Of a DNA stretch of 64,000 bases, positions 1-31,189 are shown piece after piece. The stretch comes from Tigriopus japonicus. Taxonomy: Eukaryota; Arthropoda; Copepoda; Harpacticoida; Harpacticidae. Position 1 is the stretch's first letter. Every line of letters starts with the position of its first letter. Under the pieces are notes generated by a model, which did no database searches, had not been told where the DNA came from, and was given only the letters and a program-made list of their open reading frames with translations. The stretch lies in assembly GCA_010645155.1 (NCBI GenBank), contig JAAGOF010000109.1:1563898-1627897 (forward strand). The letters run 5' to 3'. The translations under genes were made by a program, and so were the position numbers.

Positions 1-2922
1 GTCACATGCAGGATTCTGATTGGCATTCCAAATTGAGTTGAAGCCTGTGAACAATTTGGGAATGAACAGGTTCAAGTAGTCTGACTTCTTTTTGCACATG
101 ATGAGCGATAAAAGGAAGATCTGTCAATTAGAGGAGACAACCCTCGAAAAGAGTTCTGACGGCTCTTATCCATAGTTTCTGGAAGCCAGCGTGAGTTTCA
201 AAAAGTTATGAACTGACAACGAGATAATCTTGAGCTGGCACTTTCATTCTTGCAAGACAGAACTTAAGTGCATCACAGATCAACTTGAAATGTTTTGGGG
301 TTATAGCCCTTTAGTTGAGTTCCCTTTGGTCAAGGGAGGATATTTTATGGTAGAACAGACCAATGACTTGAAAACAATGGCTTCAGTGCCCAATTACTTT
401 GGCTCTTGAGAAGGTTTCAAAGTTATTTCTAACAAGAAAATGATTTGGATTACACACTTCCTTCTTGTTTGTAACAACTGCTATTAAAGAATGTGAACTA
501 GAAATATTGGTGAAAGAATTTCCCCCATATGTGGAGACAAACAAAAGGGAGGTAAAAACTCAAAGTCAATCACATTTTACAATTGTCATCATAAGTGTGC
601 AAAAGCATATGATTCTAACCAGTTCATTAGCTTTAAGTAAAGTTGCTTAACGTAACTGTCATTAGAGTTTTATATTCATTTATTTCTCGACTATGTTCAA
701 CAAACCACCCCACCACACACTCGCTTAACTTCTCATTTTGGCTACCCTGCTGTTCCTCTGCATTTCGGCCAAGCTGACCAGAACAGATATCAGGCTAAAA
801 GGGCTAGATTCCACTAGATTTGGAATTGTTCACATGATCTATTACTTGTCAGCATATTTTTCCCTAAGATACTATATGACCCACCGTGTACCAATCAATG
901 CAGATTCATCAAGCTCTTGTTTGACATTATAGAATAGAAATATCGAGAATTCGGTCATCCAGGAACTCTCAAGTCCCATAGCATCACGACAAACTCTTCG
1001 GATGGAAATTTGTTCAATCCCACGAATCTCCGGAGACTGTTCGGAAGTCAACCAAAACTTGACTTTTTGCTTCTTGTCGGTTCGTTGTTAGCTCGTCATG
1101 TCAGAGCTTGATTTATGAGGAATCCAAAGTTGAATTTCTTCTCGTCCGTCCAACCCTATTTGATTTGATTGTGAACATGATGGATGGAATAATATTGAGC
1201 AGTTACGTGGCAAAATTCACGGAAGCCTTGTTTAAAGTCATCGAGACCTGAGGCTTAAGATTGTCCTGGTGGTTTGCTGATCGAGGAACGCATCATGACC
1301 GATCGGATGATCAAAAAATAAAGAATCATTGTCTTTTTCCTGATCCAGTTTGTAATTATCTTCCTCCTAAGGTATCCGATCGCTTAGAGACCCCATGAAA
1401 AGAGACGATGAATCTATTCTTCATCTAGCCAATCTTCAAGTCAAATTAACACTGATAGTGGAGAGGCACACCCAAGAGCAAAATCCAATTTTCCCTCAGA
1501 ATTGCCCAAGGACTTCTTGAAAATACAAAGTCACGATGGAGCAGACATGAAAATCCGCCAACTATAATGAGTTTCCCACCTGAATCCACGAATGACAATC
1601 CATTTGGCCACAACGAATTAGTTTATTCAAAGAGTAGGCGGTATCTTGAGCAAGTTTTGAGTTCGTGGGGGGCTTTGATTAGAAATAGTTTCCCTCTCTT
1701 TGTATTGAGCCAACTTCCTTGCTGTTCATGAGACTTTGAACTCAGTTAATAAAACCTCGGTTTTGGACAGTTCTTTCATGTTATCATTCACAGCTTTTGA
1801 ATGTACGATTAAAGCTCGATTGCCTTCCGTAGCACCTGAATTTTAGCAGGGCAAAAATACGCATGTGTCTTTTATAACTTTGAAGGCTAATCAAACCTTG
1901 GCCCTTGCTAATCAAATGAATCTACTTCAACCATTCACAACTCTGCAAAAAATAAATACAAGTTCAATTTTTGGAGGCAATGTTTGCCCCCCCCCTTTCC
2001 AAGTTAGTTTAAAATTGTTAATATTGGTTTGAAATCCTCAACTCTTGGGACACCAAAATATTTCCTTTCTTACATAAATGTGTTAAAATCCCTAAATATT
2101 GAATCTAAATTTGAAGTGCCACGATGTTGTGATCTGTTTTTTCGCTAAGTAGATACTGTGTATCATGTTTCTTAGCAATGACCCTCTGTGTGATGAGGAA
2201 AGGTCATTTTTCGTTTCCAAGAAGTCCACTGAGTAATTTCTTTATCTATGAATGCCCCAAGATGTTCAATTTCCTGCCTCAAGCATGACTAGAGGGCTTG
2301 TAAGAACTGAATATTTGATGTGTTCTATTATCCTGCCAAATGAATAGCTCTTGTAGAATACGATCCAAACTGACTTTTGCTTAGGGAATTGCATCGCATC
2401 GACTAATATGAATCTACGGTTTATAAAAGAAACTCGGAGATTGATCTTTCAAACATCACTCATCTGTCAGCAAACAATGCGTTTCTTCGTCGGTTTCCAC
2501 GGATATTTCCTTTGGAAAACAAGGATCAGGCTTTCAGTTTAGGATTGCTAAAGAGCACTTTTTTGCAGTTTTAATGTTAATCAGGTTTCAGAACAATTCC
2601 CCAGATACTTCCACTTTGACTTTACACAGACATGAACGTTGCCCCATGATATCAATTGCCGTTTTGAATATTATCAAAATCTCATTTTTCAGCGATCCTT
2701 TTTCTAGCAAGAAGATTCAATTTGCTTGAACTCAATCTAACGTGTACCAAAAAACGTTCGTGTGAATTGTATTTACTATTACGTATTAATATGATTAGCT
2801 GGAAACTTAGTAGTTCTTTTTTACGATTACACTGATGATTATTTTCCAAGCTTTGCACTCTTCCAATGTAAATCCATTTATGTTTTTAGCACCAAAAGAC
2901 TTGAAGTTAATCGAAGGTAATC
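1..2922. other. Intergenic, no gene recognised
   Basis: I see no coding exon and no recognisable repeat with clear ends in this stretch. Open frames are short, lack family signatures and look like chance openings in AT-rich DNA. Exons of a gene lying mainly outside the window cannot be excluded. Confidence 0.5.
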
Positions 2923-3108
2923 CAGGGGTCGGCAACCGCTTTTGGGCCATATTTGATGTTTTTTTTCAGGGACCCACCTTGCAGAAGATAGTGATTACAA
3001 GGGTCAAAATTAGACATGATTTTCGAGCCGTATACTTCGGAATTTCCCCGTAGCCCTTGGGCCCTCCAAAATTCATAAAGGCCGCGGCCCACTGGCTGCC
3101 GACCTCTG
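2923..3108. mobile_element. Short hAT-like MITE (CAGGGGTCGGCA ends)
   Basis: The 186-bp element starts CAGGGGTCGGCAACC and ends GGCTGCCGACCTCTG, an imperfect terminal inverted repeat of the CAGRG type seen in hAT transposons. The flanking octamers AGGTAATC and ATCCAATC agree at 5 of 8 positions, so the target duplication is decayed. There is no transposase frame; it must have been mobilised in trans. Confidence 0.6.
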
Positions 3109-6100
3109 ATCCAATCGATCTGATTTTTAAAACCCAGGGCAAATTCTTGATTGATTACCGAAATGATTGTCCTGACAGTTAAAAACTGACAACCATCAAT
3201 AGCAAAGGTTAAAACCTGACTCTAAAGACCAAATTGAAGGTGGTTTTATTCATCGATCCCTTAAGATCAAATAGCTGATTTGAAAATGCCATTCTACCTA
3301 TTACGAAATCAATTCCCGTCAACCGTTATAACATATTGTAAATTCGTTTATTTGAAGAGTCTTTTTCTCAAAACTTTGCCCGTGAACTAGGCATCACTCT
3401 TTGAAAGAAGACAATGTCCGGACACTAAAATCTATTTGACCCTTGAAATAACGTTGTCCCATCACAAAGTTGCCAGACATTCAAAGGACCGAAATCTGGA
3501 AACAGTTCCCATGGGTCATTAAAGTGCCAGGACTGGAAAACTACCAGCTCTCAGTGCTCTTTTGGGGGATTTTGCAAAGTACAGCACTACATACGCACAA
3601 GCTCTTTCGGTGAGTTTGACTACGAACGATAGTCTTCCTCATGAATTCCCCCAACTTCCAAGTGTAGGAAACAAAAGCCGAGAGAGAAAGGATCCTAATG
3701 GATTCTATTCCACATGTTCCTTGAATACGAACAGGAGCATGAGATCCTCATTGCTTAGAACTGGAGGACCTTCCACATGAGATACTAGGTTTGCATACTC
3801 GATGTGTTGTCCACCATTTGTCTTTATTAGGGTCATTAGTAAACTACCATATTGTTCCCAGAGTTTTTCACATGTGTGCGTCTATGCCAAAAAACAGCCG
3901 TTAACCATATTTTTCTCCAGGCAATTGGCCGTTTCAGAATTGGATATTCACTCCATTTGAATCCTGCATTCGCATTACGGACACAATGTTGGAATGAGCC
4001 AACCTACAATTAATTTAAATAAGAAAACTCGGCCTTACATTTTCCATGCTACCCGTAAATCCTTTGTCTCATAAATATCAAAACGACATGCCGAATTGCA
4101 TTAAAGCAATGCCGCTTTTGGCTCTCAACTAAAGCATAAATAGGCAAAAAAGCGCCTTCAATGAGGTTTCCAACGAAAACCTACGTTTGGTTCCATTTTT
4201 GAAGAGAATTATTTGCCATGCTGACAAATTTACGAGCCTTGCTTACTCCGTTCCATTGAAAGAATCAAGGAAGTTTTTTCCTCAAATTCATTCACCACAT
4301 TTTGACTCATTCCAAGCTCAGTCAGACTCTAAAAAAGAACGTCCATACCTTCAGAAACATGAACAACCCAATTAAGTCCATTGGTAAAAGTCGTGACCAA
4401 GGTTCATGTGGCCTTTCGAAAGCATTGGTCTTGGATACATTGTACGCGTGTACGTGAGAAGCGATGACAAAGAATTCTTGGACGCAAACCCAATCTCTAA
4501 TACTACAGAGACCACGAGATGAAACACTCATCTTGAAACAGAATGACCTGAAGATGATTGTGCCCAACGACCTTTTAGCCTCATCAATGACAGCCCTCGA
4601 AAAGTGATTCTAGGGGTTTTAACAAAAACAAGGGGCTCTCTGGTATGGCACATGGCATAACTAATGAACTTGGAATCGAGCGAAAGGAACAACGGGGCCT
4701 GAAAATCAATGTACGTACGTACCACGGGAATTTTCCCCAGACCCTCTCGCTTGCCCCCTCTCTGTGACAGGGATTGATGCGAATTGGTGTCGAGAAATAA
4801 TCGACAACCTCCATTCACGTGGCTTCAACCGAGAAAGCTTTCAGGAATGGGGAAATAAGTCCGGAGTGACCTCGATCGTTAACCTCAGGGAAAAAAAGAC
4901 CACTGTGTCCAAGTCAGTTGTGGAGGCTTTTTTCAACTTTGTGCCTCAGAACCTCTGTGGACAATTGTGTCCCTCTTGGAACATGTGGAGCGTCGAGATG
5001 AAAACGTGGCATTTGAGTGCATTAGAAGTGGTAGGTAGAAGTTCAGTGCGTAGGTAGTACGTAGAGGTAGATGCTTGGTCCAATATTTGCCCAACAAATG
5101 GATTGAAAAGGCCAGTCAGTCAGAGGCCTTCAGGGCTTTTCTTCTTGTCGAAATAAGAACACGGAATTCCTCACGACGGAAGATGAGACATTCATCCCCT
5201 TGACTTAATTGCTGCGCAAATTCTATCACCTAACAAAGTGGTCCTAGCATCTTGAAAGTGGAACCAAAGTGTCACTAAAGTACTCCCTTCAGGCACAAAG
5301 TCGACATTGTTCCCAGGGATTTGAGAGAACGCTTTCAAGGAAAGAATATCGGCTTGAATTTGTCTTCACATCCCACATCCAACCAAGCCAGATAACATGG
5401 AAGAAGACATAGAAAGAGGGGGAGGATGAGGATGATTTCCTATGTACTGTAAGAAGCAGGACGCGAAGAAGGAGGATCTGGAACAGAGCAAGAAAAATTG
5501 GCCCCCATCCAACTTGGCCACACGAGGGATCCCAAGGTCTCTCTCTCTCTGTGGGCAGATATAAATCGACAGGATTCGGTGGATGAGGAACCCTGTCGTG
5601 GTGGAAACCAGCCTCTCACAATCCACAGCCTTATTAGAGGAGTGAAAATATGCCTAGGGCGATGGGATGCAAAGTGGTCCCCATAAACGGGTCCACAATC
5701 CCCTCGTTCCGTTCGTTTGGGCTTCGTCAAGCCCAAAAGCCAAGGAGAAACGAATTCAAAATTGGTTCCCATTCATCCAGAATGACCCCTCTGTCCCTTT
5801 GGACAATAACCACAATTTGTCGAAACGTCTGGCAGATTCTGAAACACGTGCCACGTCAGAGGCCTTGTTTTGATGTATCGGGCCTTCTTTGCGTGAGATT
5901 GGAGGCGATTTTTCTCATGGCGTGGTACATGAAAAGATCTCGAGAAGAAATGAGTCCCTGGATTCTCGAATAGATTGGAACTGGTTTGGAGCACTATCAT
6001 CCGAGTCGACTATTTGTGCCATATACTCGCACCATAGAAGAGGCTGAAATGTGTTGGCTTATCGATCTAGTGCTTGATTTGATTGGAACTCAGATGCGTG

Positions 6101-6582
6101 TCCTAAGGACGAAAGGGACATTGCGAGAAAATGAGTCTGGCACTCAATGTGTGTGTGAGACAAAAAAAAGAGGATGTGTTCATGCAAAAACATTTAGCAT
6201 TGAAGACGTGAGGGTTTTTTCTTCACTTGAGAGGCAACTGGAATTTGCAATTTTGGAGGATCTAGGGTGAAACAGAAATACCACGAGATCGATAAACTTG
6301 GCACTTCTACTTCAGCCAAATCCTAGAAGGCTGAAGTTTCTGGTTCTACAGAATTGTCTGTTCTACAAATTACTGATTTAATCATTAGCTTCCAATTCCA
6401 TCGGCTTAAATGTCTGAGACCCTTTACAACGTAAGTGAGGGTGATGAATTAAGAGAAACTAGATTCAATACCACAAGCCACCTTTTTGGTAAGATGTTGT
6501 TTGTTTACCCTTTGAAATGGAATTGCACAATTGTTCAATTTAGGATTATATCCGCAATCTTGGGCTTTTCAGACAAATTTGT
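3109..6582. other. Intergenic, no gene recognised
   Basis: Several 60-110 codon open frames overlap on both strands at 4.5-6.3 kb, where base composition is less AT-rich. None shows a recognisable domain. One plus-strand frame (about 4770-5057) follows a plausible 3' splice site (ctgtgacag), but with no family match I do not call it a gene. Confidence 0.4.
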
Positions 6583-6590
6583 GTCTAGAA

Positions 6591-6742
6591 CAGGGGTTCT
6601 TGAACTTTTTTGAGCCATGGCCCCTTAGAGCTTCTTGAGAAACAAAAGCTTGAAAAGTGTCTTGTGGTGTCGTATCAGTTAAGTTTTGACCGTTTTGGTG
6701 TTTTTCAAAAATTCTTCAGGGCCCCGAGTTTGAGAACCGCTG
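6591..6742. mobile_element. hAT-like MITE with perfect 8-bp TSD
   Basis: The 152-bp element begins CAGGGGTTCTTGAAC and ends GTTTGAGAACCGCTG, a terminal inverted repeat of the CAG-GGTTCTCAAAC type common in hAT elements. It is flanked on both sides by GTCTAGAA (6583-6590 and 6743-6750), an exact 8-bp target-site duplication as expected for hAT. It has no coding capacity. Confidence 0.85.
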
Positions 6743-6923
6743 GTCTAGAAGGTCGTTTAAATTTGATTATGATCAAAGCTAGAGCGTTATAATCAAAGCC
6801 CAAGTTTGAATAGCTATTTTAGTGAATGCTAATTAACAATTCTTTTGAAACTTTCTTAAAAAAGATAAAAACTTTAGTTTTTATCTAAAGCATTGTTGAA
6901 CTTAAACCAGAATTCATGCCTCA

Positions 6924-7510
6924 ATGGGACATACACAAAGGTTGCTCAAGTGAGTGTTTTGAATTAAACCGCTAGCATTGAGTTGCACGGCCCATTTTGA
7001 CAAACCCAAGTCGTTTCAATTTTAGCGTGTATTCAAAGAGCGTAGGGTCATGGAAATGATCGGTATTGCACGCTAAGATACATTGGCGGGAGTTAGTTGG
7101 ATCAAAACTTTGCAAAATTCACTTTCAGGGGGATTGAATAAAAAGCACTTAAGCAAGCCTTGTGCTACTGCAAAAATGGGAATTAGCAATGATCAAAACA
7201 ATAATGCACATTGCACACAACAACAATGCACATTTTTTCAGCTGATTCCATAGAATTGGATCAAAATTTCAAACTGTTTCCCATAAAGAGAATGGAAGTA
7301 GGTTTTACTCCTTCCTTGGAATGTATGATTTTCCTAGACTTAATTAAAAAAGATTAAAAATTAAATGACTTGATGTGCCAAAATGGGCTGAGTAACTTGC
7401 AAGTCATTTCAATTTTAGCTTTTATTAATTGAGCACAGCCAATATACCTGTTCTAACACTAGCGGTATGATTTAAAACGCTCACTTGAGCAACCTTTGAG
7501 CATTATCCAT
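6924..7510. mobile_element. Foldback element FB1, copy A
   Basis: Two inverted arms frame this element. The left arm has GGTTGCTCAAGTGAG near its start. The right arm (about 7370-7510) carries the reverse complement, CTCACTTGAGCAACC. Outer ends are ATGGGA and CCAT. The same arms occur in copy B at 33538-34193, and copy A is the more decayed. No transposase frame is present, and the target duplication is not clear. Confidence 0.7.
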
Positions 7511-8370
7511 TGGGATCAGGTATTTTAACTTGTCTGCCCTCTTGGCAGCTGAGACCTGAAAATGGGGAAATCGCCGCTCACACCCTGGAATGAAAATTGT
7601 TCTGCAATCACGATATGAACTTAAATATTACGGTAATGACAGTTACGGACAGTTTGGCACGATCAAACATCCAGCGTACCCCCAATAGTTTCTAGAACAT
7701 TTTTGGATTAGTTTCATCAGTGAGAAATTATTGCTGAAACAGCATGTGTCACTTTGATGTCCGGTGTTTTCTTCATGCAGGGTTCTATCTCGTCTTAGCC
7801 ATGTAAACAAGCAGTGAATGGCGGGAATCAAATTTTACACGGACCTAGAGAAAGGAGAATGGTTTGAGAACACCTAAAATCTAATAGAAATGTTAGTGTT
7901 CACAGTGATGCGTGAGCTCATAAAATCTCCAACGTCCATCATTATTTTTGGCAAAAGAAAGGCACCTTAAAAATGGACCAACTTTGTGCCCTCCATACTT
8001 TCCAATTTGGTCGATAGCATGCCAAATATCATTTCCAGGGATAGAGATACCAGTTACGGGTAGATTGGATGCTAAGCACTTCAAATCTATCCTTATATGA
8101 TGATTATATTTTGGCTCAAAATTACGACAAAACTTTCAGGTCAGGGTGTAAATATAACTTCACCCTTTGGAATGACCGCAAGTTCACTCATTTTCAGCTA
8201 TTTTTATTGTTATTGCCCGATCATCTGCAGTAAATAACCTCGAAATCGCACCCTAAAAGTCCACCTTTCTTCGATGCAAAAGAAAGATATTTGCTACTTC
8301 CGATTGGTTAAGTTCTTTCATCACATTTTTCCGCCTGTTTACAAGGTTTGTAAGTCAAGGACGACTCAAC
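7511..8370. other. Intergenic, no gene recognised
   Basis: AT-rich sequence with no coding signal or bounded repeat that I can support. Confidence 0.45.
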
Positions 8371-8797
8371 CTAGAGTATCGTCAAAAGTGTGCCATCTTG
8401 TGGATTTCATGCGGCAATAGCATGTTACACATATTTTTGAAGATTGCAATGGTCATTCATCAGTTTTGGACGAACTAAAGTGGCTAAAAAGTTGATGGCG
8501 AACCTCCAAATATAAGTTTAAGTGTTTTTCTGATGAGTTTTGGCATAGATCATGCCTGAATTACCTTTTCATTAGTCATATTTCCATGCCTATTTGAAAG
8601 GGATTTTACCAATAATTTCAACCAAAAACCACCACAGGTCCATTAACTTAACTCAGTCAACATTTTAGCCACTTTAGTTTGTCCAATACTGATGATTGAC
8701 CGTTTTAATCTTCAAAAATGTGTGTATCATTGGAACTGCGAGCTGTTGCCGCATGAAATCCACTAGATGGCGCACTCTATGATCGTACTCTTTTATT
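8371..8797. mobile_element. Foldback (inverted-repeat) element
   Basis: The left arm (about 8385-8508) and the right arm (about 8640-8797) are inverted copies. GGATTTCATGCGGCAA in the left arm matches the reverse complement of TTGCCGCATGAAATCC in the right, and ACTAAAGTGGCTAAAA matches TTTTAGCCACTTTAGT. The central spacer is about 130 bp. Outer ends and target duplication could not be fixed. Confidence 0.6.
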
Positions 8798-10003
8798 ACA
8801 GTGCTCTAACTCAACCAAGGAAATATTACAGCCTTGTTACAATAAGAGAAATTGAGCGAAAATTTAGTAGAATAACAGTATTCATGCAACATTTCCTCAG
8901 TCTTTCCTGATGAATTTTCTATGGCCGCGCATTTTTTTGGTTTCAACCTCCCTTCGTTGGGTTTGAGACCATATCGTTCAATTTTTTAACGATTTTAACT
9001 AAAGATGCACTGGGAAGTTCGGGCCATCATGAATTGGGAACACTAATCCAGTTCCAAATGGGTCAAGGAGAGATGCTCTTAAGAACAAGGCATTCAGAGT
9101 GCTTCTAAGTTGTCTTGCATTTGCATTTTGCATTCGAGAGATTTGGAAAATTCTTTGGAGCTAAGCTTGGCAACCCGTGGGAATGCAGAAACTGCAACAT
9201 GAAATATCACCCGTTCCAACCTTGATGACTGTATCTGTCTTTGAACCCAAAATGAAGGACCTTATTAATCTATAACTAGGCGTTTGAGAGAAAGCTCATA
9301 TTTTTGCGCGGATATTTCTCACAGTTTTAGAAAGGAAGGCGTTGGAGCAATTCAAAATGAATGAGGGACGAACTTGTGAAATCCCTCAGTTTATCTTCAG
9401 TCTATGACTTCCATTGAATGCATTTCCCCTAAAAACTTTGGAACACATGTTCTTGCTTGCAATTTTTCCAACGTCATTTGTCTTCTTGTATCTTGTTTTA
9501 TATTGACATTTTTCCCTCGGGGATTTGAAGTCGCACGAAATGACCTTTGCGTTTTACTGATGGTTCCGAGGTTGAAACAATGGGAAAGAAATGGTCTCCT
9601 GGCATGGAAAAAATATACATACAGTCTTGTGTGTGATGATTTTGGTTGTCCAAAAACATCAAGAAGAGGAAAATGCAAGATAAAGTGCAAAACATTTTTC
9701 AAAGAAATCCGCAACAGTGCTCTCAATTCAAGCAAGCCGTGGATCCAATTTCAAAAGCAATTCTACTTTTGATGTTTACGAAGTCTCTCATATTGATTTC
9801 TTTTTTAAGTAGCAGATCTCAACAAGTATTTTAGTATCTGAGGTTCGTGGGACCAATCGTATATTTCTGGAACCTAATCTAGATATACATTATGAGAGCA
9901 TGTAGGAGATACATATAACTATTGGAAATTACCGGGATACCCTGAATGTACGTCGGTGGTTCTTGAATTGTGTCTTCGGAGGACTTGACTGAACTGAGTC
10001 TAA
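8798..10003. other. Intergenic, no gene recognised
   Basis: A 122-codon ATG frame exists at 9404-9772 (plus strand), but it overlaps an open frame of similar length on the other strand and has no recognisable domain. I treat it as unsupported. Confidence 0.4.
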
Positions 10004-10011
10004 ATTAGCAC

Positions 10012-11289
10012 CAGGGCTGCCAGGTAATTGGAGACCAAAAACGCCAGATCGCCCTGTCAAAAACGCCAGATATCGAAATTCTCCGCCAGATTTTTTTCAA
10101 AAAACCGCCAGAATAACGCCTGATTCTAGTTCCTTCATTATGCATTTGTTCTAGAGGAGACATATCATGCACTAACCTTTCATCAATAAAGATAGCTGAG
10201 TTGAACTTATCAAGCATCCTTCGGGTTGATCCAGTTTAAAAAGACACATTTTTCGCACACATTTGCTCTCATTTAGATAAAAAGAGACTTTGAATTTGAG
10301 TTTATCAGTAAGACCAAATAAGACAAAAAATAAAGCAAACCACCATCATATTCAAGCTAATAATCATGAGTGTGAAACTTTCGAAAGGTTTTGTACCCTA
10401 AAAATGTGCTTTTGTAAGTAGTTGAAATATTTGGAAATATGGTGTATTATTTGTTTGGCCTTTTACCCATATATTTACAAAGTTTGAGTTTTTTTGGCAT
10501 TTCTTGCACTTCATTAGCCATGAATTAGCCAACAGAAATGCAAAACTGCATTTTTTACATTTTTTGTTTTTGCTCAAAAACTTTTCAATTTCTTTGACAG
10601 TTGAGTTTGTCACTGCAATAAATTGATTTGCCATTCCAATACACTTTGTTTACCATTCAAGCATTTATCTTTTCATCCCAACACACTTTCTTTACAATGC
10701 CAGCACATTTTTTTCCAATCTAGCGCATTTTGCTTGTCCCTTTTTCAGCTTGAAAAGCATCTTCTATTTGCTAAAATCTTCAAGCTTACCAATACTAGTT
10801 TCAACAGCCCAGCACTTTCTTATATTAATTATAAGATTTAAATATCAAGATGTATAAGTGATGATTATTATAAGCGCTACTTTTGGTTGTTTATCTGAAA
10901 TTGCTGGAAAGTCAACATAAAAAAGAGAAAAACGAAAGAGATGGCCCAAAAATGGTCACATTATTTTTTGTAACTAATGTAACTTTGAGCTCTAGCTCTG
11001 TTATGCTGAATTCTGCTAGAACATTGTGACACTATTGTGTTTCTACTAATCCTACAAATCAAAGAAAATACGCCAAATTTCACGATTTTCAGTTAAATAC
11101 CGCCAGAAACTTGTCAAAATGTTCTTCCCCGCCAAACGGAAATTTCCCAACGCCAGACTGTAACGTAAACCGCCAGAATACCGCCAGATTTTTCCGTCCC
11201 ACCAAATAAAAAATTTCGCCGCCAGACGTGGCCTCAAACCGCCAGAAACACCAAAATCTGGCGGGCCAAACCGCCATCTGGCAGCCCTG
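10012..11289. mobile_element. Non-autonomous hAT-like element, CGCCAGA subterminal repeats
   Basis: The 1278-bp element starts CAGGGCTGCCAG and ends CTGGCAGCCCTG, a perfect 12-bp terminal inverted repeat. ATTAGCAC lies on both sides (10004-10011 and 11290-11297), a perfect 8-bp target-site duplication diagnostic of hAT. Both subterminal zones carry many copies of CGCCAGA/TCTGGCG in both orientations, as expected for transposase-binding sites. The interior is AT-rich and has no recognisable transposase, so this is an internally deleted or substituted derivative. Confidence 0.9.
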
Positions 11290-11297
11290 ATTAGCAC

Positions 11298-11754
11298 CAG
11301 TTTGCACCAGTACATAACGGAAGCAGTTCGTCAATTGGGGGTTTGAGGTTGCGCTAGTGGAACTTGATCCATTGCGTGAAGGTTTCGATGTATTAGTTTC
11401 TACAAGATAGCAAATTATTACCTATCAAATTTAATCTCAGACTTGTTGTTGAGGACATTTGGAAGTATACCAGAAGCATAGTAATACGGTGAAAAAATAA
11501 CCGTGCACCAGTTAGTTTCCCTTCATAAGTTGCGTTTTTCAATCGCAAAAAGCAGCTTGTGCGCTATTCTCGAGCATATTTTATTCTACTGGTTCCTACT
11601 ATGCTTCTAATTTCCTTCCGTAAGTCCTCAATAACTGACCTATAGTATCCTCTTATTTCTGAAGAGTGAACTATCAAAGTTTGACACTTGAAATTAAACT
11701 TTTGTGTTGCCTTCTTACTGTTGAGTCTTTTCTGGGCAACAGTATCAAGCTACA
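11298..11754. other. Intergenic, no gene recognised
   Basis: AT-rich sequence. No coding signal or bounded repeat seen. Confidence 0.45.
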
Positions 11755-12262
11755 GTACACGGTAAATAGCTCACAAGGTAGAACGTTCAAAATAGATAGG
11801 TCACAGTAAAACGACACAGCAAAAAGGTTACGGTAATAAGGTCACAGGCCCGTGAGGCTCCGGAAGTAGCCAAGGGGGATCCCAGCGACCCTGATTTGTT
11901 CCATGGTTGAAGATTGTCCCAGGGGACCTCAAGATTGATTGGGTGGAACACATTTTTTTTTTCAAACAAAGGTCTCATTAGTATAGTCAACTTGAAGTCA
12001 TTTCTAACAAAATTCCTTTTTCAAATGGTCTCAAACCATCCCGGATCCGAAGGAGGGCGTTCCTTTCCCTTCTAGAGACAAAATTGTAATCCTTTTCAAG
12101 ATCTGCCCGTCAAGATCGGCTTCTAAAGTACTCCGGGTGGAACACAATCATGTCCATGGAAAAGTGATCTTTTTACAGCGACCGTTTTACCGTGTTACCC
12201 TTTTTGCCATGACCATTTTACCTTGTGACCTTTTTGCTCTGACCAATTTAGTTGTGATGGTT
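11755..12262. mobile_element. Inverted-repeat element with GGTCAC/GGTAAAA motifs
   Basis: The left flank (11755-11850) holds repeated motifs such as AGGTCACAGTAAAACG and AAAAGGTTACGGTAA. The right flank (12170-12262) holds their reverse complements, such as TTTTACCTTGTGACC and TTTTACCGTGTTACC. This matches a foldback or MITE with repetitive subterminal ends. Exact termini and a target duplication are not evident. Confidence 0.5.
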
Positions 12263-12757
12263 TTGTTTGAGATCTTTTAATTTGCAATCTCAACTACAAC
12301 ACCAAAAACCAGAATAAAATGCTAACATCAACAAAATGATGAAGAAGGTGAAAGGTACAAATTATGGACGAACAGAACCAACAAAGTTTAATTAAACCTA
12401 ATATTTGACGTAACAAATGCAATAATTTGATTTGGAAAAAATAGCCTCTTTCATAGAGTTAAGACCAGACTGACAGCTTGTATCAAGGATTATCAATTCT
12501 TCAAACGTCCTTCAAATAAACTTGTTGCCTCTTTGCTATTGAAGCATTGTTCTTTCTAATTCTTAAGGTCTTTCTACAGAAGCTCATGTGCTTCTTTAGA
12601 CGTCGATTCCAGAGGTTGATTGATATTCAAGCCAACATTCACGCTGTTTTTTATCAGAGCTGTCTTCTATGTAAAATATTTTTAAAAACGCAATTGTTTG
12701 AATTTGGTCAGTACTCTTGAGACTACAAAGTCACTCTAATATCAGTTATTTTGAACT

Positions 12758-13290
12758 TCATGTCAAACTTGACCTTTGATTAGATGATAAAAAATTTACT
12801 TTGTAAGAATGGAGAATACTGGAGAGCCTTCTTTTCACATTGCAACAATAGCTTACAAGCCAAAAAATGATATAAAACTCAATATATGGAAGACATTTGG
12901 TTTCAACGTCCCATAAAAATGTATTACAAAATGAAAGGTAAGGTTTAAATCCCTTTTCGGTGTTATTTAATGAATCTCCTTCTCGACATATGTTGGTCAC
13001 GTTGGAACTCCGCCATTGCTGTTCTTAACAGCTGTCGATGCCATCAGCGTCTTTTAGGCTTGCCGACTTAAAGACAAAAGGCCATTAAAAGTTCCAACAG
13101 CACAGCCACTTGTGTCCAATATATCCATTCGACGTTTGAGACCAAAAAACTTGTAGTTTTTTTTATCAAAAAATATTTTTTTTTTCAATTGGAATCAATT
13201 GCAGTAAGAATGGAGAATTGCGCACATTGCGGCAATAACTTGCAAACCAAAACATGATATAAAATTCAACATCTGGATATCTGTTTGACG
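12758..13290. repeat. Diverged direct duplication (two about 130-bp units)
   Basis: The segment around 12790-12905 (GTAAGAATGGAGAATACTGG onward, then CAATAGCTTACAAGCCAAAA) recurs at about 13205-13290 (GTAAGAATGGAGAATTGCGC, then CAATAACTTGCAAACCAAAA). The copies are in the same orientation and have diverged by point changes. This lies upstream of COX7C and no gene is seen in it. Confidence 0.5.
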
Positions 13291-13746
13291 TTTATTCTAC
13301 TTTGATTCTTTAACTATTACGAAAATTGTATTGTATTGTAAGTAAGCCTATGGCTTTTTTTGGAGTGCTTATACTTATGAATTTTAGTCAAAATATTAAC
13401 CATGTGGTGATCAAATAATTTCCCTCTATTAAATTATTATGTTCAACTTCTTGGATCATCCTGAATTTTGTTTCTTTAGGAGTGCACGTATAGCCACGGG
13501 GTTTCAAATACTTTTGCATTGTCTAGCCTTGACGGATGTCTACGCTTTTCCCAAAATAAATGTGCACAAGTCCCAAAATCCTCTTATCTGACCCAAAACC
13601 ATACTTATTTTTACACGACCAAACCGCATGACTGAAATTTACAAGACTTTCCGCAGAGGATTCCATTCGTTGTTTCGGTTGTGCAGGATCTCTTCTCACG
13701 TTCCATTCTCTTCGGATTTGACCTCCTCTTTCTCCTCATTGTCATC

Positions 13747-13839
13747 ATGTCTTTGGTGTTCCGACAAGTGAGCAATCTGAGACGATTCACCACCTCAGCC
13801 ATTCGACGTGGTCTGGATGGTCCTCAACCTCCCGGTGAC
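13747..13839 (+). CDS. COX7C: COX7C exon 1: cytochrome c oxidase subunit 7C, N-terminal part
   Basis: This exon encodes the first 31 codons of cytochrome c oxidase subunit 7C, a small single-span subunit of complex IV in the mitochondrial inner membrane. The peptide starts MSLVFRQVSNLRRFTTSAIR, an arginine- and serine-rich, acid-free presequence typical of mitochondrial import. It ends PQPPGD, where family members have a Gly/Pro-rich link to the mature chain. The donor GAC|GTAAGT at 13840 is strong and phase 0. The ATG is the first in a pyrimidine-rich leader (ctcctctttctcctcattgtc), which suggests a housekeeping or TOP-like promoter. Joining to 15313 gives a 68-residue protein, close to the usual precursor length. 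The same donor could also join to 13881, in front of HLCS. Confidence 0.9.
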
Positions 13840-13880
13840 GTAAGTGCTTCCTGCCTTAATTCGCCCTTCTTCCTTTCCAG
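13840..13880 (+). other. Candidate 41-nt alternative intron between COX7C exon 1 and HLCS exon
   Basis: GTAAGT at 13840-13845 faces a pyrimidine-rich tract ending ttcctttccag at 13880. Used together they remove 41 nt, short but credible for a compact arthropod intron. The product would read COX7C residues 1-31, then Ile-Thr-Leu, stop TAA (13890-13892), one codon, and the HLCS ATG (13896). The upstream frame and HLCS are in the same phase after this splice. The splice itself is inferred from site quality only. Confidence 0.55.
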
Positions 13881-13895
13881 ATCACACTCTAAATC

Positions 13896-15260
13896 ATGGT
13901 CAAACCGCCCAATATCCTGGTGTTCACGCCTCCCTCCCAACCTAGTCAGACTTTCCAACGGTTGAAAAATCTGCTACGATCCCTCTTGGAACCCGATGCT
14001 TATACGATTTATCCCCTGAAGGTCTCCACATGTCTTCAGAGTCCTTGGATGGATCACACCCAACTTTTGATCCATTTGGAGCCTGCATTCAGTGATCCGG
14101 AAGTTGGATCGCGATTCCGGAGCTATTTGCGATTACCTCAAGCCATGATGTTACATGTCAATCCGGATGGACGATTGGCCACTGATTTGCAATTGGTTCT
14201 ATTCTCGCATTTAAACCCAATATCGACACGTTTATGGGTTTCCAGGACTATAGAAGAGATGGAAGAGGATACTTGGAAAATCATATTAGGTCAGAACTTC
14301 GGATTGAAGCTTCAAACGGGTTTAAAGCTATCGGGGAAGGGATTAAATGGACCCGGTTATCTTTACGCCCAAAATCCGATAGAAATATTGGGGGATTTGA
14401 CCTTTCATGCCGAATCTAAGACGGATTTAGGAATGAAAGACATCTTACGATTGGAATCGCCGTTGTTGCATCAAACTACATTTCTTCAACATCTGCGAAC
14501 GCGATATTTAGGTCGAGTGTTGTTGTTTTACCCGGTGATTGGGTCTACCTTTGAGCCTTTAAATCAAACCCTTGGACACGGGGTCGTGGTTTTGGCGCAT
14601 CGACAATCGGCTGGACAAGGTCGAGGTGGCAATGAATGGTTGAGTCCTCCGGGATGTTTGATGTTTTCCCTACAATTAAAATTGGACCTCAAATCCGGAT
14701 TGGTTCAACGCGTTTCATTGATTCAGCATTTGATCGCTTTGGCTTTGGTTCACGCGGTTTCGAACTTGTCTAAGAGTTCGGAAGATCATATATTACGACT
14801 GAAATGGCCGAATGATATCTACTTTGGATCCGAAACCAAAATGGGTGGGGTTTTGGCCAAGTCTTCGTTTTGCGGCTCCGAAGTGGTTGTCAACATCGGA
14901 TTGGGTTTCAATCTAGACAACGCCTTGCCAACATTAAGCCTGAATAGCATTCTGAAACGTGATCTCTCAAGAGAAGTTATCTTGGCGGAAGTTTTGAATG
15001 TCTTGGAAGATCTCTTGGACCAATTAGAAGACGGCAAGATTGAGGCCTTACTTCAACTTTATCATCGTTATTGGCTTCATCAGGATCAATTGGTTCGCGT
15101 CAAACAAGAGCAATCCGATGACATTGAAGTCAAGATCAAATCCATCGACGAATTTGGCTTCTTAATAGCCGAACGTTTGGACACTAAAGCTAGTTTGACC
15201 CTTCATCCTGATGGCAACAGCTTCGACATGTTCCAAGGATTGATTTTCAGCAAGCAATAA
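13896..15260 (+). CDS. HLCS: Holocarboxylase synthetase (biotin protein ligase), intronless, nested in COX7C intron
   Basis: A 454-residue ligase that activates biotin to biotinyl-AMP and transfers it to a lysine of biotin-dependent carboxylases in cytosol and mitochondria. The biotin-binding loop GQGRGGNEW is at residues 240-248, KWPND at 303-307 and KMGGVL at 315-320. The C-terminal BPL_C region is about 395-445 and ends in HPDGNSFDM, a strong HLCS match. Residues 1-200 would be the shortened eukaryotic N-terminal region; the human enzyme is over 700 residues. The start is fixed by an in-frame TAA two codons upstream. There is no obvious mitochondrial presequence on this start. The CDS lies on the same strand and wholly inside the COX7C intron, 52 bp before its 3' exon. 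An ATTAAA at 15273 could end a separate transcript. It has no introns, unlike most animal HLCS genes. Confidence 0.95.
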   Translation: MVKPPNILVFTPPSQPSQTFQRLKNLLRSLLEPDAYTIYPLKVSTCLQSPWMDHTQLLIHLEPAFSDPEVGSRFRSYLRLPQAMMLHVNPDGRLATDLQLVLFSHLNPISTRLWVSRTIEEMEEDTWKIILGQNFGLKLQTGLKLSGKGLNGPGYLYAQNPIEILGDLTFHAESKTDLGMKDILRLESPLLHQTTFLQHLRTRYLGRVLLFYPVIGSTFEPLNQTLGHGVVVLAHRQSAGQGRGGNEWLSPPGCLMFSLQLKLDLKSGLVQRVSLIQHLIALALVHAVSNLSKSSEDHILRLKWPNDIYFGSETKMGGVLAKSSFCGSEVVVNIGLGFNLDNALPTLSLNSILKRDLSREVILAEVLNVLEDLLDQLEDGKIEALLQLYHRYWLHQDQLVRVKQEQSDDIEVKIKSIDEFGFLIAERLDTKASLTLHPDGNSFDMFQGLIFSKQ

Positions 15261-15272
15261 CCACAAAATACC

Positions 15273-15278
15273 ATTAAA
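15273..15278 (+). terminator. Possible HLCS poly(A) signal ATTAAA
   Basis: ATTAAA, a common variant signal, lies 13 nt after the HLCS stop codon and 34 nt before the COX7C exon 2 acceptor AG (15311-15312). Its use would make the HLCS exon an alternative last exon of the COX7C unit. Confidence 0.35.
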
Positions 15279-15312
15279 AATGTTTCTATAAAACAAACTC
15301 TCCTCCTTCCAG

Positions 15313-15426
15313 AATTTGCCCTTCAGCATCGAAAATCGATTCGCTCTTACTGCAAAGATGATCGTGTTTTTCGGGTCAGCCTTTGGCTTGCCCTTTTTCT
15401 TGGTCAGACATCATTTGACCAAGTAA
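15313..15426 (+). CDS. COX7C: COX7C exon 2: cytochrome c oxidase subunit 7C, C-terminal part
   Basis: After the acceptor ctccttccag (ends 15312) the frame reads NLPFSIENRF, then AKMIVFFGSAFGLPFFLVRH and LTK before TAA. NLPFS-EN, the single transmembrane segment with FGSAF-PF, and the terminal VRH-L-K are hallmarks of COX7C. Phase 0 joins exactly to exon 1 (PPGD|NLPF). The coding intron is 1473 nt, and nearly all of it is the HLCS ORF. AATAAA signals follow at 15568-15573 and 15617-15622. There is no internal exon, so the protein is complete at 68 residues. Confidence 0.93.
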   Translation, partial: NLPFSIENRFALTAKMIVFFGSAFGLPFFLVRHHLTK

Positions 15427-15567
15427 AGGCTTAATCAATTCATCTGTGCAAATTTTAGTCTCTGGTAAGAACGTCTCTTGACCTTATCAGAATGGAGAGC
15501 TACCTTAACCTTGTATGTTTATTCTTTCAGGGTACTAAAGATGAAACTCTCATTCAGTTGCTTCAAT

Positions 15568-15622
15568 AATAAAACATATAGAAGGTCGGCTGCCAGTTGT
15601 GAATCCTTCTTGGAGAAATAAA
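15568..15622 (+). terminator. COX7C poly(A) signals (two AATAAA)
   Basis: Canonical AATAAA hexamers occur at 15568-15573 and 15617-15622, about 140 and 190 nt after the COX7C stop. They are the likely 3' ends of COX7C mRNA and of any read-through HLCS transcript. Confidence 0.5.
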
Positions 15623-19124: not shown

Positions 19125-19330
19125 GGTCAAAGGCCGGCGAAAGGCCACTGATGAGGGTTGTAAAAGGCCACTGATGAAGGGTTGTAAAAGGCCACTGATG
19201 AAGGGTTGTAAAAGGCCACTGATGAAGGGTTGTAAAAGGCCACTGATGAAGGGTTGTAAAAGGCCACTGATGAAGGGTTGTAAAAGGCCACTGATGAAGG
19301 GTGGTGAAAGGCCATTGATGAAGGGGGGCA
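19125..19330. repeat. 24-bp minisatellite, about 8 copies, open in several frames
   Basis: The unit GGGTTGTAAAAGGCCACTGA plus TGAA is repeated about eight times. Because 24 is a multiple of three, both strands stay open and give spurious repeat proteins (for example KGCKRPLM repeated on the plus strand). I read it as a minisatellite and not as a gene. Confidence 0.9.
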
Positions 19331-25286: not shown

Positions 25287-25358
25287 CTAAAAAATACAGA
25301 AAAAATCAATAAGTAAAAAATTCATTTTCAAAGAGATTAAGTGTTTCTAAAGTCTCAC

Positions 25359-25930
25359 CTGAATTTGTCATACGTCATGCTTTGATTGTTTTTGACCTCG
25401 CCCCAAAGTCGAGCGAGCTCAGTTTGGTCCACAATGCGGAAGAGACCCTCTTCCTTGTTCTCCCATTTGATCACTCGAGGGTTATAATATGGGTTGTTAA
25501 TCAGTCGATCCAACCAAACTGTGATCTTGGCCTTCTCCGTACTTGTTGTATCAGGGTTTGATTCAATCTCTTCGTCATCATCTCCGTCCTCTTCAGAGTT
25601 CCATTCCATCTCAGGTGTGCTTTGAAGGTTGGTGTGATCCATTGGAGTTGGCAGCATTGGCCTGGCTTCAAGCGTGGTTTCATGGCTAACTGGAGGTTCA
25701 TTTAGGATATTCATGATGAAGTCAACATCTGGATCATACTCAGTCGTGTGAGTTTGGCTACACGTGTTCATGGGCATAACTTCAGGTTCCAAAGGGGCCA
25801 AGGTTTGGTCGACAAAGTCCCGGAGATCTTGCCAAGACTGACTACATGGATCTTGGGCTTCGTTTTCGAGGGTCTGAACTTCTTTGAGGCAAGCCTGAAA
25901 GAGCTCAAAATCATTGCCACTGGACACCAT
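25359..25930 (-). CDS. ETS-domain transcription factor, exon 1
   Basis: This exon encodes an acidic N-terminal region (NSEEDGDDDEE at about residues 111-121) and the first half of an ETS DNA-binding domain (about residues 136-192). Visible pieces are ITVWLDRLINNPYYNPRVIK, WENKEEGLFRI, LARLWGEVKNN and SMTYDKF. With exon 2 the protein is about 244 residues and nuclear by inference. The Tyr/Lys pattern of the recognition helix is close to the ESE/ELF/EHF group, but I cannot fix the subfamily and no Pointed domain is seen. I chose the ATG at 25930 (context GAACATGG); the frame stays open upstream through a TTG to a stop. The acidic stretch suggests an activation region. The donor AG|GTGAGA is at 25358. 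Confidence 0.93.
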
Positions 25931-27527
25931 GTTCGAGAAGTGCGTCAAGCAATTTGTGAGTTTTGAACAAAGTCCACAAAAGTGAAATCAAAAGAGGTCC
26001 TCGCATGAATGAGCACCTCTTGGATCGATTGGCTTGAACTGACTGCAGTCTGGACGCTATCCTATTGACTCTTCAATGTTATTCCTGGCCTGTTCACATG
26101 GTGGGACCCCAAAGAACGGTGGTGTTTCGTTATTCGAAAAAAGCTCAAGTCGATGTGATAGAAGGGGGGCCCTTCATTACGACGAGAAGCTATGCCTTCA
26201 GGTCCGAAGCTTGCCAAGCTGAATAGAGTAACTGGCTTATGTTGAGATAGGTATGTGCGGATTTTGTAAATTATTACATACACTTATCTACCGGGTCATT
26301 TTTCAATTGCAATTATTCAAATGGCTCAAGCATAAAAATATAAGGTCAGATTAACATTACAAAACTGTCGCCCATAATTTCTTAAGTACTAATATTTCCT
26401 ACTTTGTAAATGGATAGAGAAATGTGGTCTTTTTGTAGTATTTGTTCAGGGATTAAGGATCGAGATTTTTTTTCAAGGTTTACTCCACGGAACGATTTCA
26501 TCATTGTTTTCTAAGAACAAAAAAAAAGAAAATTGCATTATCCGCAGGCTGGAGTCTTTTGAGTTTTGTTACAAAATGGAAAGTAGGAGAGTATTGAAGA
26601 AATATGTATGGTATATCTGCCCCCCCCCCGAAAGTATTTGATAAAGTTGATAAAGCTTCATTTAGTATCCCATGGCTATTCCTTTATTTAACTGTTCTAG
26701 TGGTCCTTCTGAAAGGCTTCTTCTCGATTACCAATTTTTATTCAACGAAAACGAGACGGATAAGTTTAACAATGGGTAGGAAATAATTGTTTGCTTTAAA
26801 TTATAATATGCTACAATTTCCTTACAAAAAGCATGAAGCGTTACAAACCTATAAAAGTTTTCCAAAATAAATCAGTTATGAAGTATATTAGAAAATCAGG
26901 TTGACTTTTGTCAATCTCATCAAATTTTTCAAATTTTACCCGACCGAGTAAACAAAAAAACAACGTTTCTTTCAACTCGCATAGGCTTATTAAAACGTTC
27001 CTATGGAGTTTAAGGGCACTCTGTACAAAAGGAGATCCCTGTATTACGAAGCCCCACTGTCAAATCGGTGACATGATGGCCTACTCGTACCTGATCGAAT
27101 TGGCCAGTCAACCTAGTGTAAGACAAGTCTACCGTAATATTTTCGTCCATGCCCACATTCTACACATGTACTCGCATCAAATGCGCCCTGATCGAAAACA
27201 CGATTGGCGTCCTCACACTTGCATCTACTTACTGTATGACATACAGTAAGTATGTACACACTACAGCACAGTCTCTAGCTACAACAGTCATAGTTAAAAA
27301 CAGGTTCTAAAAGGATGACTTAAGCTGTCGGTGGGATGGCCTAAAGTCCTCATAACACCTAAACACCAACAAGAAAAGTTGAATATTTACAACTTGGTAC
27401 TTCTAGAACACTTCCTCTCAGGATTGAGGACATAGATTAGGTTGATCCTTTGGTCATGAATTGTTCTTTATGCATATACATAGTACGTGTATACGTACGT
27501 GATAATCTTTTCATTTTGTTCAAGAGT
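25931..27527. other. Upstream of ETS gene, no further gene recognised
   Basis: This should contain the ETS promoter and 5' leader, but no motif can be assigned. A 113-codon frame at 26908-27249 has no recognisable domain. A dispersed motif (GGTGGTGTTTCGTTATT) lies near 26121. Confidence 0.4.
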
Positions 27528-29026: not shown

Positions 29027-29863
29027 TAGGGACAGGAAGTTTAGACGAATAAAACTGTCAGAATAGACGAAAAAAGACGAATAAAAGTAGCTGATTAGAC
29101 GAATAAAGACGAATAAAATTAGCTGATTAGACGAATAAAGACGAATAAAATTGCCCGATTAGACGAAAAAAGACGAATAAAAGTAGCTGATTAGACGAAT
29201 AAAGACGAATAAAATTGCCCGATTAGACGAAAAAAGACAAATAAAAGGCTTCATTAGACGAAAAAAGACAAATAAAAGGCTTCATTAGACGAAAAAGGCA
29301 AATAAAAGGCTTCATTAGACGAAAAAAGACAAATAAAAGGCTTCATTAGACGAAAAAAGGCGAAAAAACTGACAAATACGACAAAAAAGACGAAAAAAAG
29401 AGGAGGATAAAGAGAGAATTCCCAATAAAGGATTTTAAACCAAGCATGAAAAATTCGCCAATAGATGACGGGGAGGTTGGGTAAGTAAAGAGAAAAGACT
29501 TGTAAGCTTAGTGCTTAGTACTTGGCCCCTCTTTAACGCCATCTATTGGCGAATTTTTCAAGCTTGGTTTAGACGTGCAATAGCGCAACTGATAATCAAA
29601 CTATTACTTTGGCCCAAGTTTTTTGTAATTGAACTTTTTAAAAAGTGTCTATTTGCTTTAAATTTTGAGAAAAAAAAAACCAAAAAAATCATATTTTTGA
29701 TTAATCAGACGAAAAAAGTTGAGTGAAATTGCCGGATTAGACGAAAAAAGACGAATAAAATCCAAATTAGACGAATAAATTTATCGCGACGAATAAGAGT
29801 AAAAAAGCCGAATAAAGACGAAAAAAGACGAACAAGTTTATTCGTCTAAAGTTCCTGTCCCTA
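29027..29863. mobile_element. hAT-like element (TAGGGACAGGAA ends) with GACGAATAAA array
   Basis: The 837-bp element starts TAGGGACAGGAAGTTTAGAC and ends CTAAAGTTCCTGTCCCTA. CTGATAAC flanks both sides (29019-29026 and 29864-29871), a perfect 8-bp target duplication. Much of it consists of degenerate tandem units of GACGAATAAA and GACGAAAAAA (29040-29400 and 29705-29835), with the mirror-image motif at the right end. A 134-bp MITE is nested inside. No transposase. Confidence 0.9.
29437..29570 (+). mobile_element. MITE-3 (TTCGCCAATAGATG type), copy 1, nested
   Basis: The roughly 31-bp inverted arms are AAACCAAGCATGAAAAATTC then GCCAATAGATG on the left, and CATCTATTGGCGAATTTTTC then AAGCTTGGTTT on the right. 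It is inserted inside the TAGGG hAT element. A second copy along its full length, in the other orientation, is at 57903-58038. Confidence 0.8.
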
Positions 29864-29874
29864 CTGATAACAAT

Positions 29875-31189
29875 TGCACTGCTGTTAGAAAATGTTTCCA
29901 AAAGACCCATTTTAGCTGGGTCCGATCCAATCCAGATTCGAGCCGATCCGAATCCGACCTGGATCCAAAAATTATGATTTCGTTTCAGAGCCAAACCGAT
30001 CTGGAAAGTCGCCGAACCAACCCAGATCCGGAACCAACAAATCTTGCCCTGAACCATCCCTGTTTTTATATCCGTGGAGAACAAAGTTCCTTTAATGAAT
30101 TTTATAGCGGTTATGACTTCTTCACCAATGTTGTCATGAACTTTGACTTGACCAGGATGATTGTTAAGCAATCTACAATAATTTATTTTGAAACATACAC
30201 AGTTGTTTTAAACTTGAGTGCCCAAAACTTTGCCGGTGAATTATCATAAATCGATACGATGAAGTTAATTTTGTCTGAATAACTTTCATGGCATCGTTGT
30301 ACACCAATCCATTTGTTTTTTTCCTCTGTAAAGAATGACTGTAAAATTAACCTTTCTAGTGTGGGGTCAAAGTAGGGATGTTTTTCGCAAATAAAATAGT
30401 TTGCCTGAAGATACCTGAAATTGTTTTCTAGAAGTAATATTTTTACAAAATAATCATTGGCGTAATGATTTAAAAAATGTGTCAAGAGCAATTCTTGATT
30501 CGGATTGGGACTCTAGTGCGTGACATCCTTGTAGATCAGAGTATTCAAATGTCGGAGAGGGCAAAAAATAAGCTAGAGTTCAGAATTTAAGCTATAATGA
30601 AACGTAACGTTAAAGGTTGTCTAAAATGCTTCAAAGTTTGTTTCTTCAAAGATATGTTTAAGACCTCGGTGATAGTCAAAGAGCGCGACCAAGTTACAAC
30701 TGATTAATCTAATTCTAAAGTCATGCCCAGCTTTGAATTCAAGTCCTCTTTCACCGTCCGGCCATTTACAATGGATTTAAGATTTGAATTGGACCTTAGA
30801 TTTGTTCGAGATCACAGACCAAATAATGGTCATTATTTGATCTGTGTTCGAGATCTGTTCTTTTGGAGATTTGGGATTAATTATCAAGTCAAGCCAAATC
30901 TTGGGCTAATCGAATCTTCAGAAACCTTTGGTCCTGCAATATGGATTGATCAGAAACGTTGTGACTATCATAATGAATAGTGATGGACCGAAAGGGCTCT
31001 GAACCGAAGCCGAAACCAAAACCCAAAGCAGCTGACTAAAAATTTTATATATGCAAAAATAAATCTAAATTAATCGTAGGGACGACGTTGGGCAATTCCA
31101 ACTTCTAAAAAATCCAAAAAAAATGAGTTTTAAAGGTTTTCAGACAAACATATTTCTTATGTTTGTCTTGTCTGCTTTCGGTTTCAGTA
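29875..31189. other. Intergenic, no gene recognised
   Basis: No coding exon seen. A short perfect hairpin (CAGACAAACATA and TATGTTTGTCTG) lies near 31140-31166. Confidence 0.4.

Follow-up and report, generated by a model that had tools for sequence, protein, structure and literature searches.

HLCS lies within the first intron of COX7C in the copepod Tigriopus japonicus and probably shares its promoter

The window analyzed here is a 64,000-nucleotide stretch of the genome of the harpacticoid copepod Tigriopus japonicus (GenBank assembly GCA_010645155.1, contig JAAGOF010000109.1, positions 1,563,898 to 1,627,897 of the forward strand). Within it, the gene for biotin protein ligase (holocarboxylase synthetase, HLCS) lies entirely inside the first intron of COX7C, which encodes a subunit of respiratory complex IV. 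As read from the sequence, both frames are intact, each gene occurs once in the genome, the arrangement appears again in the gene model of a second species, and a strong 3' splice site directly precedes HLCS. We lean, with some reserve, towards the nested pair being a single transcription unit with two splice outcomes; HLCS and COX7C probably share a promoter and perhaps exon 1 as well. The elements of the nest are as follows, with positions counted from the first letter of the window.

13747-13839, plus strand: coding part of COX7C exon 1, 31 codons including the mitochondrial presequence, placed by translation and Pfam; COX7C chains in the PDB align from residue 10.
13840-15312, plus strand: COX7C intron 1, 1473 nucleotides (nt), GT...AG, phase 0; the split point PPGD/NLPFS is identical in the gene model P0003, described below.
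13896-15260, plus strand: HLCS (biotin protein ligase), a single uninterrupted frame of 454 amino acids plus stop; the sole match in the genome.
15313-15426, plus strand: coding part of COX7C exon 2, stop codon included; the sole COX7C match in the genome over the cut-off.

The initial annotation had joined the two COX7C exons in phase 0 around this intron, and translation proved its coordinates correct. The joined protein of 68 amino acids (MSLVFRQ...PPGD/NLPFS...HHLTK, then stop) matched the Pfam COX7C family at 63.2 bits, against a cut-off of 25 bits, over residues 6-68 of 68. Its placement of the whole of HLCS within that intron, on the same strand, was likewise borne out, as the HLCS open reading frame (ORF) exceeded the cut-offs for both Pfam BPL_LplA_LipB (PF03099; 76.3 bits, cut-off 21) and the NCBIfam birA_ligase model (TIGR00121; 110.8 bits, cut-off 83.1). 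The C-terminal domain of biotin protein ligases (PF02237) scored 20.4 bits, with a cut-off of 21 bits. From stop to stop the HLCS frame spans 455 codons; the maximum across 100 first-order Markov windows was 235 codons, and the length is thus far beyond chance. The motifs KWPND, the GG that comes next, and DGNSFDM were invariant across nine chosen HLCS sequences, and GRGGN was kept in eight of them. In most animals HLCS is known to have introns; the nested HLCS of the window has none.

Searches of the whole genome (194,852,151 bases in 158 contigs) returned a single HLCS match, the copy in the window, and a single COX7C match over the cut-off, exon 2 in the window. A candidate for a second COX7C gene, locus L003, scored 23.4 bits, below the cut-off; it reads unlike COX7C, resembles a segment of a membrane receptor, and was taken as a chance match. 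In a search for HLCS proteins, 7990 candidates were scored and 161 matched, of which 120 were listed; the protein counts given below refer to these 120. Identity to the window HLCS was 98% for P0001, from a separate data set, 70% for P0002 of T. californicus, 44-48% for P0003, and 34-35% for P0014 of the sea louse Lepeophtheirus. P0003 is a EukProt record, an ab initio SNAP model labeled Tk11877. We read its source as T. kingsejongensis, from the Tk label and from the annotation of that genome, which is described as having used MAKER and SNAP (PMC5467011). This single model runs through COX7C exon 1 to PPGD, then through HLCS, and then through COX7C again from NLPFS, with the split as in the window, and it alone among the 120 listed proteins carried COX7C motifs at both ends. 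The nest has therefore been met in two species, the window species and that of the P0003 model.

The initial annotation had pointed to synteny in related species as a check and had named an assembly join as grounds for giving up the nest. The recurrence in P0003, with its identical split point, bears on both: since P0003, whose HLCS is less than 50% identical, repeats the same order in another assembly, the nest is old, and an assembly join does not account for it. The absence of introns from this HLCS, contrary to what is usual in animals, might point to an artefact of assembly or to HLCS being a dead retrocopy. However, the 454-amino-acid frame is open, the ligase motifs are conserved, the genome holds no other HLCS match, and a protein 98% identical (P0001) occurs in another data set. 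Together with the gene order of P0003, these observations led us to reject both explanations, and we give them next to no credence. A standalone Tigriopus COX7C was also sought: a query with the window sequence had three words in common with no protein, and a query with the alignment matched 192 proteins, among the 120 listed of which none was named as Tigriopus, some entries being nameless. Among viral contigs there was one pattern match and no relative.

Splice sites were scored with generic matrices, not trained on this genome, and ranked among the 7121 AG sites (both strands) and 6596 GT sites of the window. The following elements surround the start of HLCS.

13768-13769, plus strand: alternative 5' splice site within exon 1, giving a 113-nt intron to 13880.
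13859, plus strand: branch-point-like A (TTAAT); its distance is 19 nt to the 13840 donor and 21 nt to the AG.
13879-13880, plus strand: 3' splice site TTCTTCCTTTCCAG, followed 16 nt later by the HLCS ATG; ranked second of the 7121 AG sites.
13890-13892, plus strand: TAA stop, in frame with COX7C exon 1 (via 13880) and with HLCS; it closes an upstream ORF 3 nt short of the HLCS ATG.
13948-13949, plus strand: possible acceptor within HLCS, speculative; a 110-nt intron from 13840 would place HLCS residue 19 in frame behind the presequence.
15311-15312, plus strand: 3' splice site of COX7C exon 2, ranked 68th of the 7121 AG sites.

Strong 3' splice sites had been claimed at 13880 and 15312, and the ranking agreed with that claim; the acceptor of an apparent intron in the COX7C 3' untranslated region (UTR), at 15530, ranked 31st, and 13949 ranked 79th. 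Among donors, 13768 (CAA/GTGAGC), within exon 1, fell in the top 1.0% and the COX7C donor at 13840 (GTAAGT) in the top 1.9%. The gap between exon 1 and the HLCS ATG measures 56 nt, and the acceptor at 13880 falls inside it. Because this gap holds an acceptor, the HLCS mRNA is very probably spliced, and a leader supplied in cis would have to come from 13839 or farther upstream, on the promoter side of COX7C. A separate promoter in the intron with a leader exon of its own does not fit, since only 56 nt are available to it and these include the second-ranked acceptor. HLCS could instead have its own start inside exon 1 or the gap and be left unspliced, the acceptor at 13880 being a by-product of pyrimidine-rich sequence. 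The context of the HLCS ATG is good (A at -3, G at +4), and a start downstream of 13749 would eliminate the upstream ORF; however, a rank of 2 in 7121 at that very spot is hard to credit as chance, and there is hardly any room for a leader. We therefore regard an unspliced HLCS with its own start as distinctly unlikely.

For the single transcription unit we infer the following course of events. Transcription would start upstream of exon 1, and the single-exon HLCS would be carried along within COX7C intron 1. Splicing of exon 1 to 15313 would yield COX7C, while splicing of a 5' piece of the unit to the acceptor at 13880 would yield HLCS, that piece most likely being a short exon 1 that ends at donor 13768. 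The HLCS mRNA would take its 3' end either from an intronic ATTAAA or from the poly(A) site of COX7C, and HLCS would be translated behind the COX7C ATG by leaky scanning, by reinitiation, or from 5' ends past that ATG. The HLCS of T. californicus offers a hint in this direction. P0002 begins MSLGSR, where COX7C exon 1 in the window begins MSLVFR, and no other protein among the 120 listed had an MSL start. Splicing of exon 1 onto HLCS at about codon 6-7, where donor 13768 lies, would produce such a start.

Several observations weigh against the single transcription unit, or against parts of it, beginning with the splice geometry. The initial annotation had predicted the junction 13839-13881; its acceptor is outstanding, but with that donor the intron would be 41 nt long, with its sole branch-point-like A 19 nt from the donor, and 13768 scores higher. 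Nine short introns sampled from the genome measured 58-84 nt: two at L003 (63 and 70), one in an ETS-domain gene (72), one in the COX7C 3' UTR (66), and five in aldehyde dehydrogenase genes (58, 66, 76, 82, and 84). This sample is small, restricted to short introns, and called from sequence signals. For the aldehyde dehydrogenase genes, 9 of 16 loci were scanned for introns of ~34-130 nt whose donor and acceptor scores exceeded set limits, and three candidates (71, 100, and 122 nt) were dropped by eye since the joined peptide was unlike the enzyme. Since 41 nt lies below the sampled range and donor 13768 gives an intron of 113 nt, the junction 13839-13881 appears less likely than 13767-13881.

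The upstream ORF is a further difficulty. Exon 1 spliced to 13880 stays in frame and meets the TAA after three codons (MSLVFRQ...ITL-stop), and donor 13768 spliced to 13880 gives MSLVFRQITL-stop, so that either donor ends the frame 3 nt before the HLCS ATG. An mRNA with the COX7C ATG would thus carry an upstream ORF, which is normally bad for HLCS translation, and the context of that ATG includes A at -3 (with T at +4). HLCS would need one of the three modes of translation named above. In addition, P0003 is a merged prediction that continues beyond HLCS into COX7C exon 2, and it informs on gene order, not on the transcript. The leader of P0002 is ambiguous too, as it may be unspliced intron, with the R codon AGA lying across a CAG acceptor. 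More generally, interference between nested genes has been described as likelier than their coordinated expression (PMC2568002).

A donor farther upstream also counts against the use of exon 1. The site AAG/GTAAGG at 12938 falls in the top 0.05% of the 6596 GT sites and could end a separate noncoding exon spliced to 13880, so that HLCS would share the promoter region and skip the COX7C ATG. Such a leader would spare HLCS the upstream ORF, and an acceptor at 13686, before the COX7C ATG, could join that exon to COX7C as well. The promoter and exon are purely conjectural, however; about 3 of the 6596 GT sites in the window score as high, P0002 starts like COX7C exon 1, and the neighborhood of 12938 holds a repeat. 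We judge this upstream leader unlikely. The repeat itself, upstream of COX7C, consists of two direct copies of 55 nt (12836-12890 and 13223-13277) that are 84% identical.

Trans-splicing was considered as well, 13880 then being the site at which a spliced leader cuts HLCS from the COX7C pre-mRNA in an operon-like manner. Calanoid copepods are described as adding a 46-nt spliced leader (PMC4664967), and such a mechanism would explain a strong acceptor near the ATG that lacks a well-spaced donor at 13840. Against this, the 31-nt core of CopepodSL, the calanoid leader, and the 26-nt core of CopepodSL-like1a, the type of sea lice, had no match with up to 3 mismatches in the 194.9-Mb genome (like2a-c were not searched), which weakens the trans-spliced reading. 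The report of these leaders describes no hit in harpacticoid data, with an order-specific leader still conceivable (PMC4664967). Trans-splicing to HLCS therefore seems to us very unlikely.

A further idea is that COX7C exon 1, with its mitochondrial presequence, doubles as a targeting exon for HLCS in Tigriopus, with an inner Met giving the cytosolic ligase. We find this doubtful. Leaders of this general kind are seen in other HLCS proteins: 38 of the 120 listed proteins had both an M start and a KPPN-type motif, with leaders of fewer than 12 residues in 8, 12-60 residues in 20, and more in 10. Among the 20 with leaders of 12-60 residues, 17 had no D or E in their first 20 residues, as against 15% of random internal 20-mers from the same proteins, and 16 had an inner Met, the random control covering acidic residues only. 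They resemble mitochondrial leaders that come with a second start. For P0002 the leader has only 14 residues, leaving fewer chances of an acidic residue. Eight proteins (P0005, P0007, P0008, P0015, P0022, P0023, P0027, and P0030) have a basic, acid-free leader with an inner Met before KPPN, which suggests dual mitochondrial and cytosolic targeting by alternative start.

The window HLCS starts at KPPN and lacks such a leader. The COX7C presequence of P0003 (no acidic and four basic residues among the first 20) is open in frame to an inner Met and KPPN. In the window species the phase fits, but the TAA at 13890 blocks a form joining the presequence to HLCS via 13880. Enumeration of 9 GT by 5 AG sites excluded any in-frame fusion of exon 1 to a complete HLCS; four pairs were in frame, and each would cost HLCS its first 17 or 18 residues. 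The frame-keeping acceptors lie only inside HLCS, at 13945 or 13949. A 110-nt intron from 13840 to 13949 would restore the frame but is unlikely, because the 18 residues lost include KPPN, which is invariant in nine aligned HLCS sequences. If the targeting idea were true, the biotin ligase and a complex IV subunit would owe their mitochondrial targeting to a single exon.

Candidate 3' ends for both products lie in the last part of the nest.

15273-15278, plus strand: candidate HLCS poly(A) signal, ATTAAA.
15465-15530, plus strand: apparent 66-nt intron in the COX7C 3' UTR, 38 nt after the stop, recognized by sequence signals only.
15568-15622, plus strand: AATAAA poly(A) signals of COX7C, possibly common to HLCS, with motifs at 15568 and 15617.

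The ATTAAA that had been proposed to end an HLCS exon is indeed present after the gene, but it is weak as a poly(A) signal by itself, as two more copies lie inside the HLCS ORF (14342 and 14675). An intron 38 nt past the stop is close enough that nonsense-mediated decay is not expected.

The layout is already known from other loci, and COX7C/HLCS would be a further case of a nested gene that uses the promoter side of its host. In the cholinergic locus, the vesicular acetylcholine transporter gene (VAChT) lies as a single-exon ORF within the first intron of the choline acetyltransferase gene (ChAT), with a common promoter side, as is probable here. The common first exon of that locus is noncoding, whereas exon 1 of COX7C is coding and carries a mitochondrial presequence. 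The cholinergic products also join in one cholinergic task, while COX7C and HLCS are not known to act together. The cholinergic locus is described as having multiple promoters and alternative splicing, and its arrangement is kept in nematode, Drosophila, and mammals (PMC3053374). Among human genes, 24 pairs are reported to have a common first exon and different coding sequences, and the common exon of one pair, CPNE1/RBM12, is confirmed to zebrafish and described there as noncoding (PMC2568002). Being noncoding, that exon 1 raises no upstream ORF problem and has no targeting peptide to lend, in contrast to exon 1 of COX7C. The novelty here may possibly be a coding common exon that lends a targeting peptide. 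In the open-access literature collection that we searched, no paper named COX7C together with holocarboxylase synthetase.

Two relatives of the ligase offer partial parallels. By the title of a 2008 study by Puyaubert et al., a small upstream ORF reportedly regulates translation start and targeting of Arabidopsis HCS1. This places an upstream ORF on the same enzyme, as the COX7C-headed ORF would be, and we treat the likeness as a lead only; to our knowledge, HCS1 is neither nested nor linked to a respiratory gene. For yeast BPL1, the sequence upstream of the annotated start is reported to score as a mitochondrial leader, and the ligase is argued to be needed in mitochondria (PMC4263661). Unlike in COX7C/HLCS, that leader belongs to BPL1 itself and no nesting is involved.

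Elsewhere in the window, the minus strand at 25355-25987 carries the beginning of a gene for an ETS-domain transcription factor (PF00178, 53.6 bits), where the 72-nt intron in the sample above splits the ETS domain. A tandem array at 19140-19325 (24-bp unit, 7.8 copies, 97% matches) lies in long minus-strand open frames and is probably no gene. At 29767-30249, frames of 146 and 148 codons overlap on opposite strands; the minus-strand frame had no Pfam match, and the region is possibly a repeat element. Scans of the 64-kb window with Rfam (gathering threshold) and for tRNAs gave no matches.

Tigriopus is a leading model of mito-nuclear incompatibility, in which nuclear subunits of complex IV matter. 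The initial annotation had raised a metabolic link between complex IV and the biotin carboxylases, and we keep this coupling as a hypothesis. If the single transcription unit is real, it would be an unusual case in which the common exon is coding and could lend a targeting peptide. If expression of COX7C is tied by splicing to that of the single HLCS gene, any change at this one locus would act on both respiration and all biotin-dependent carboxylases.

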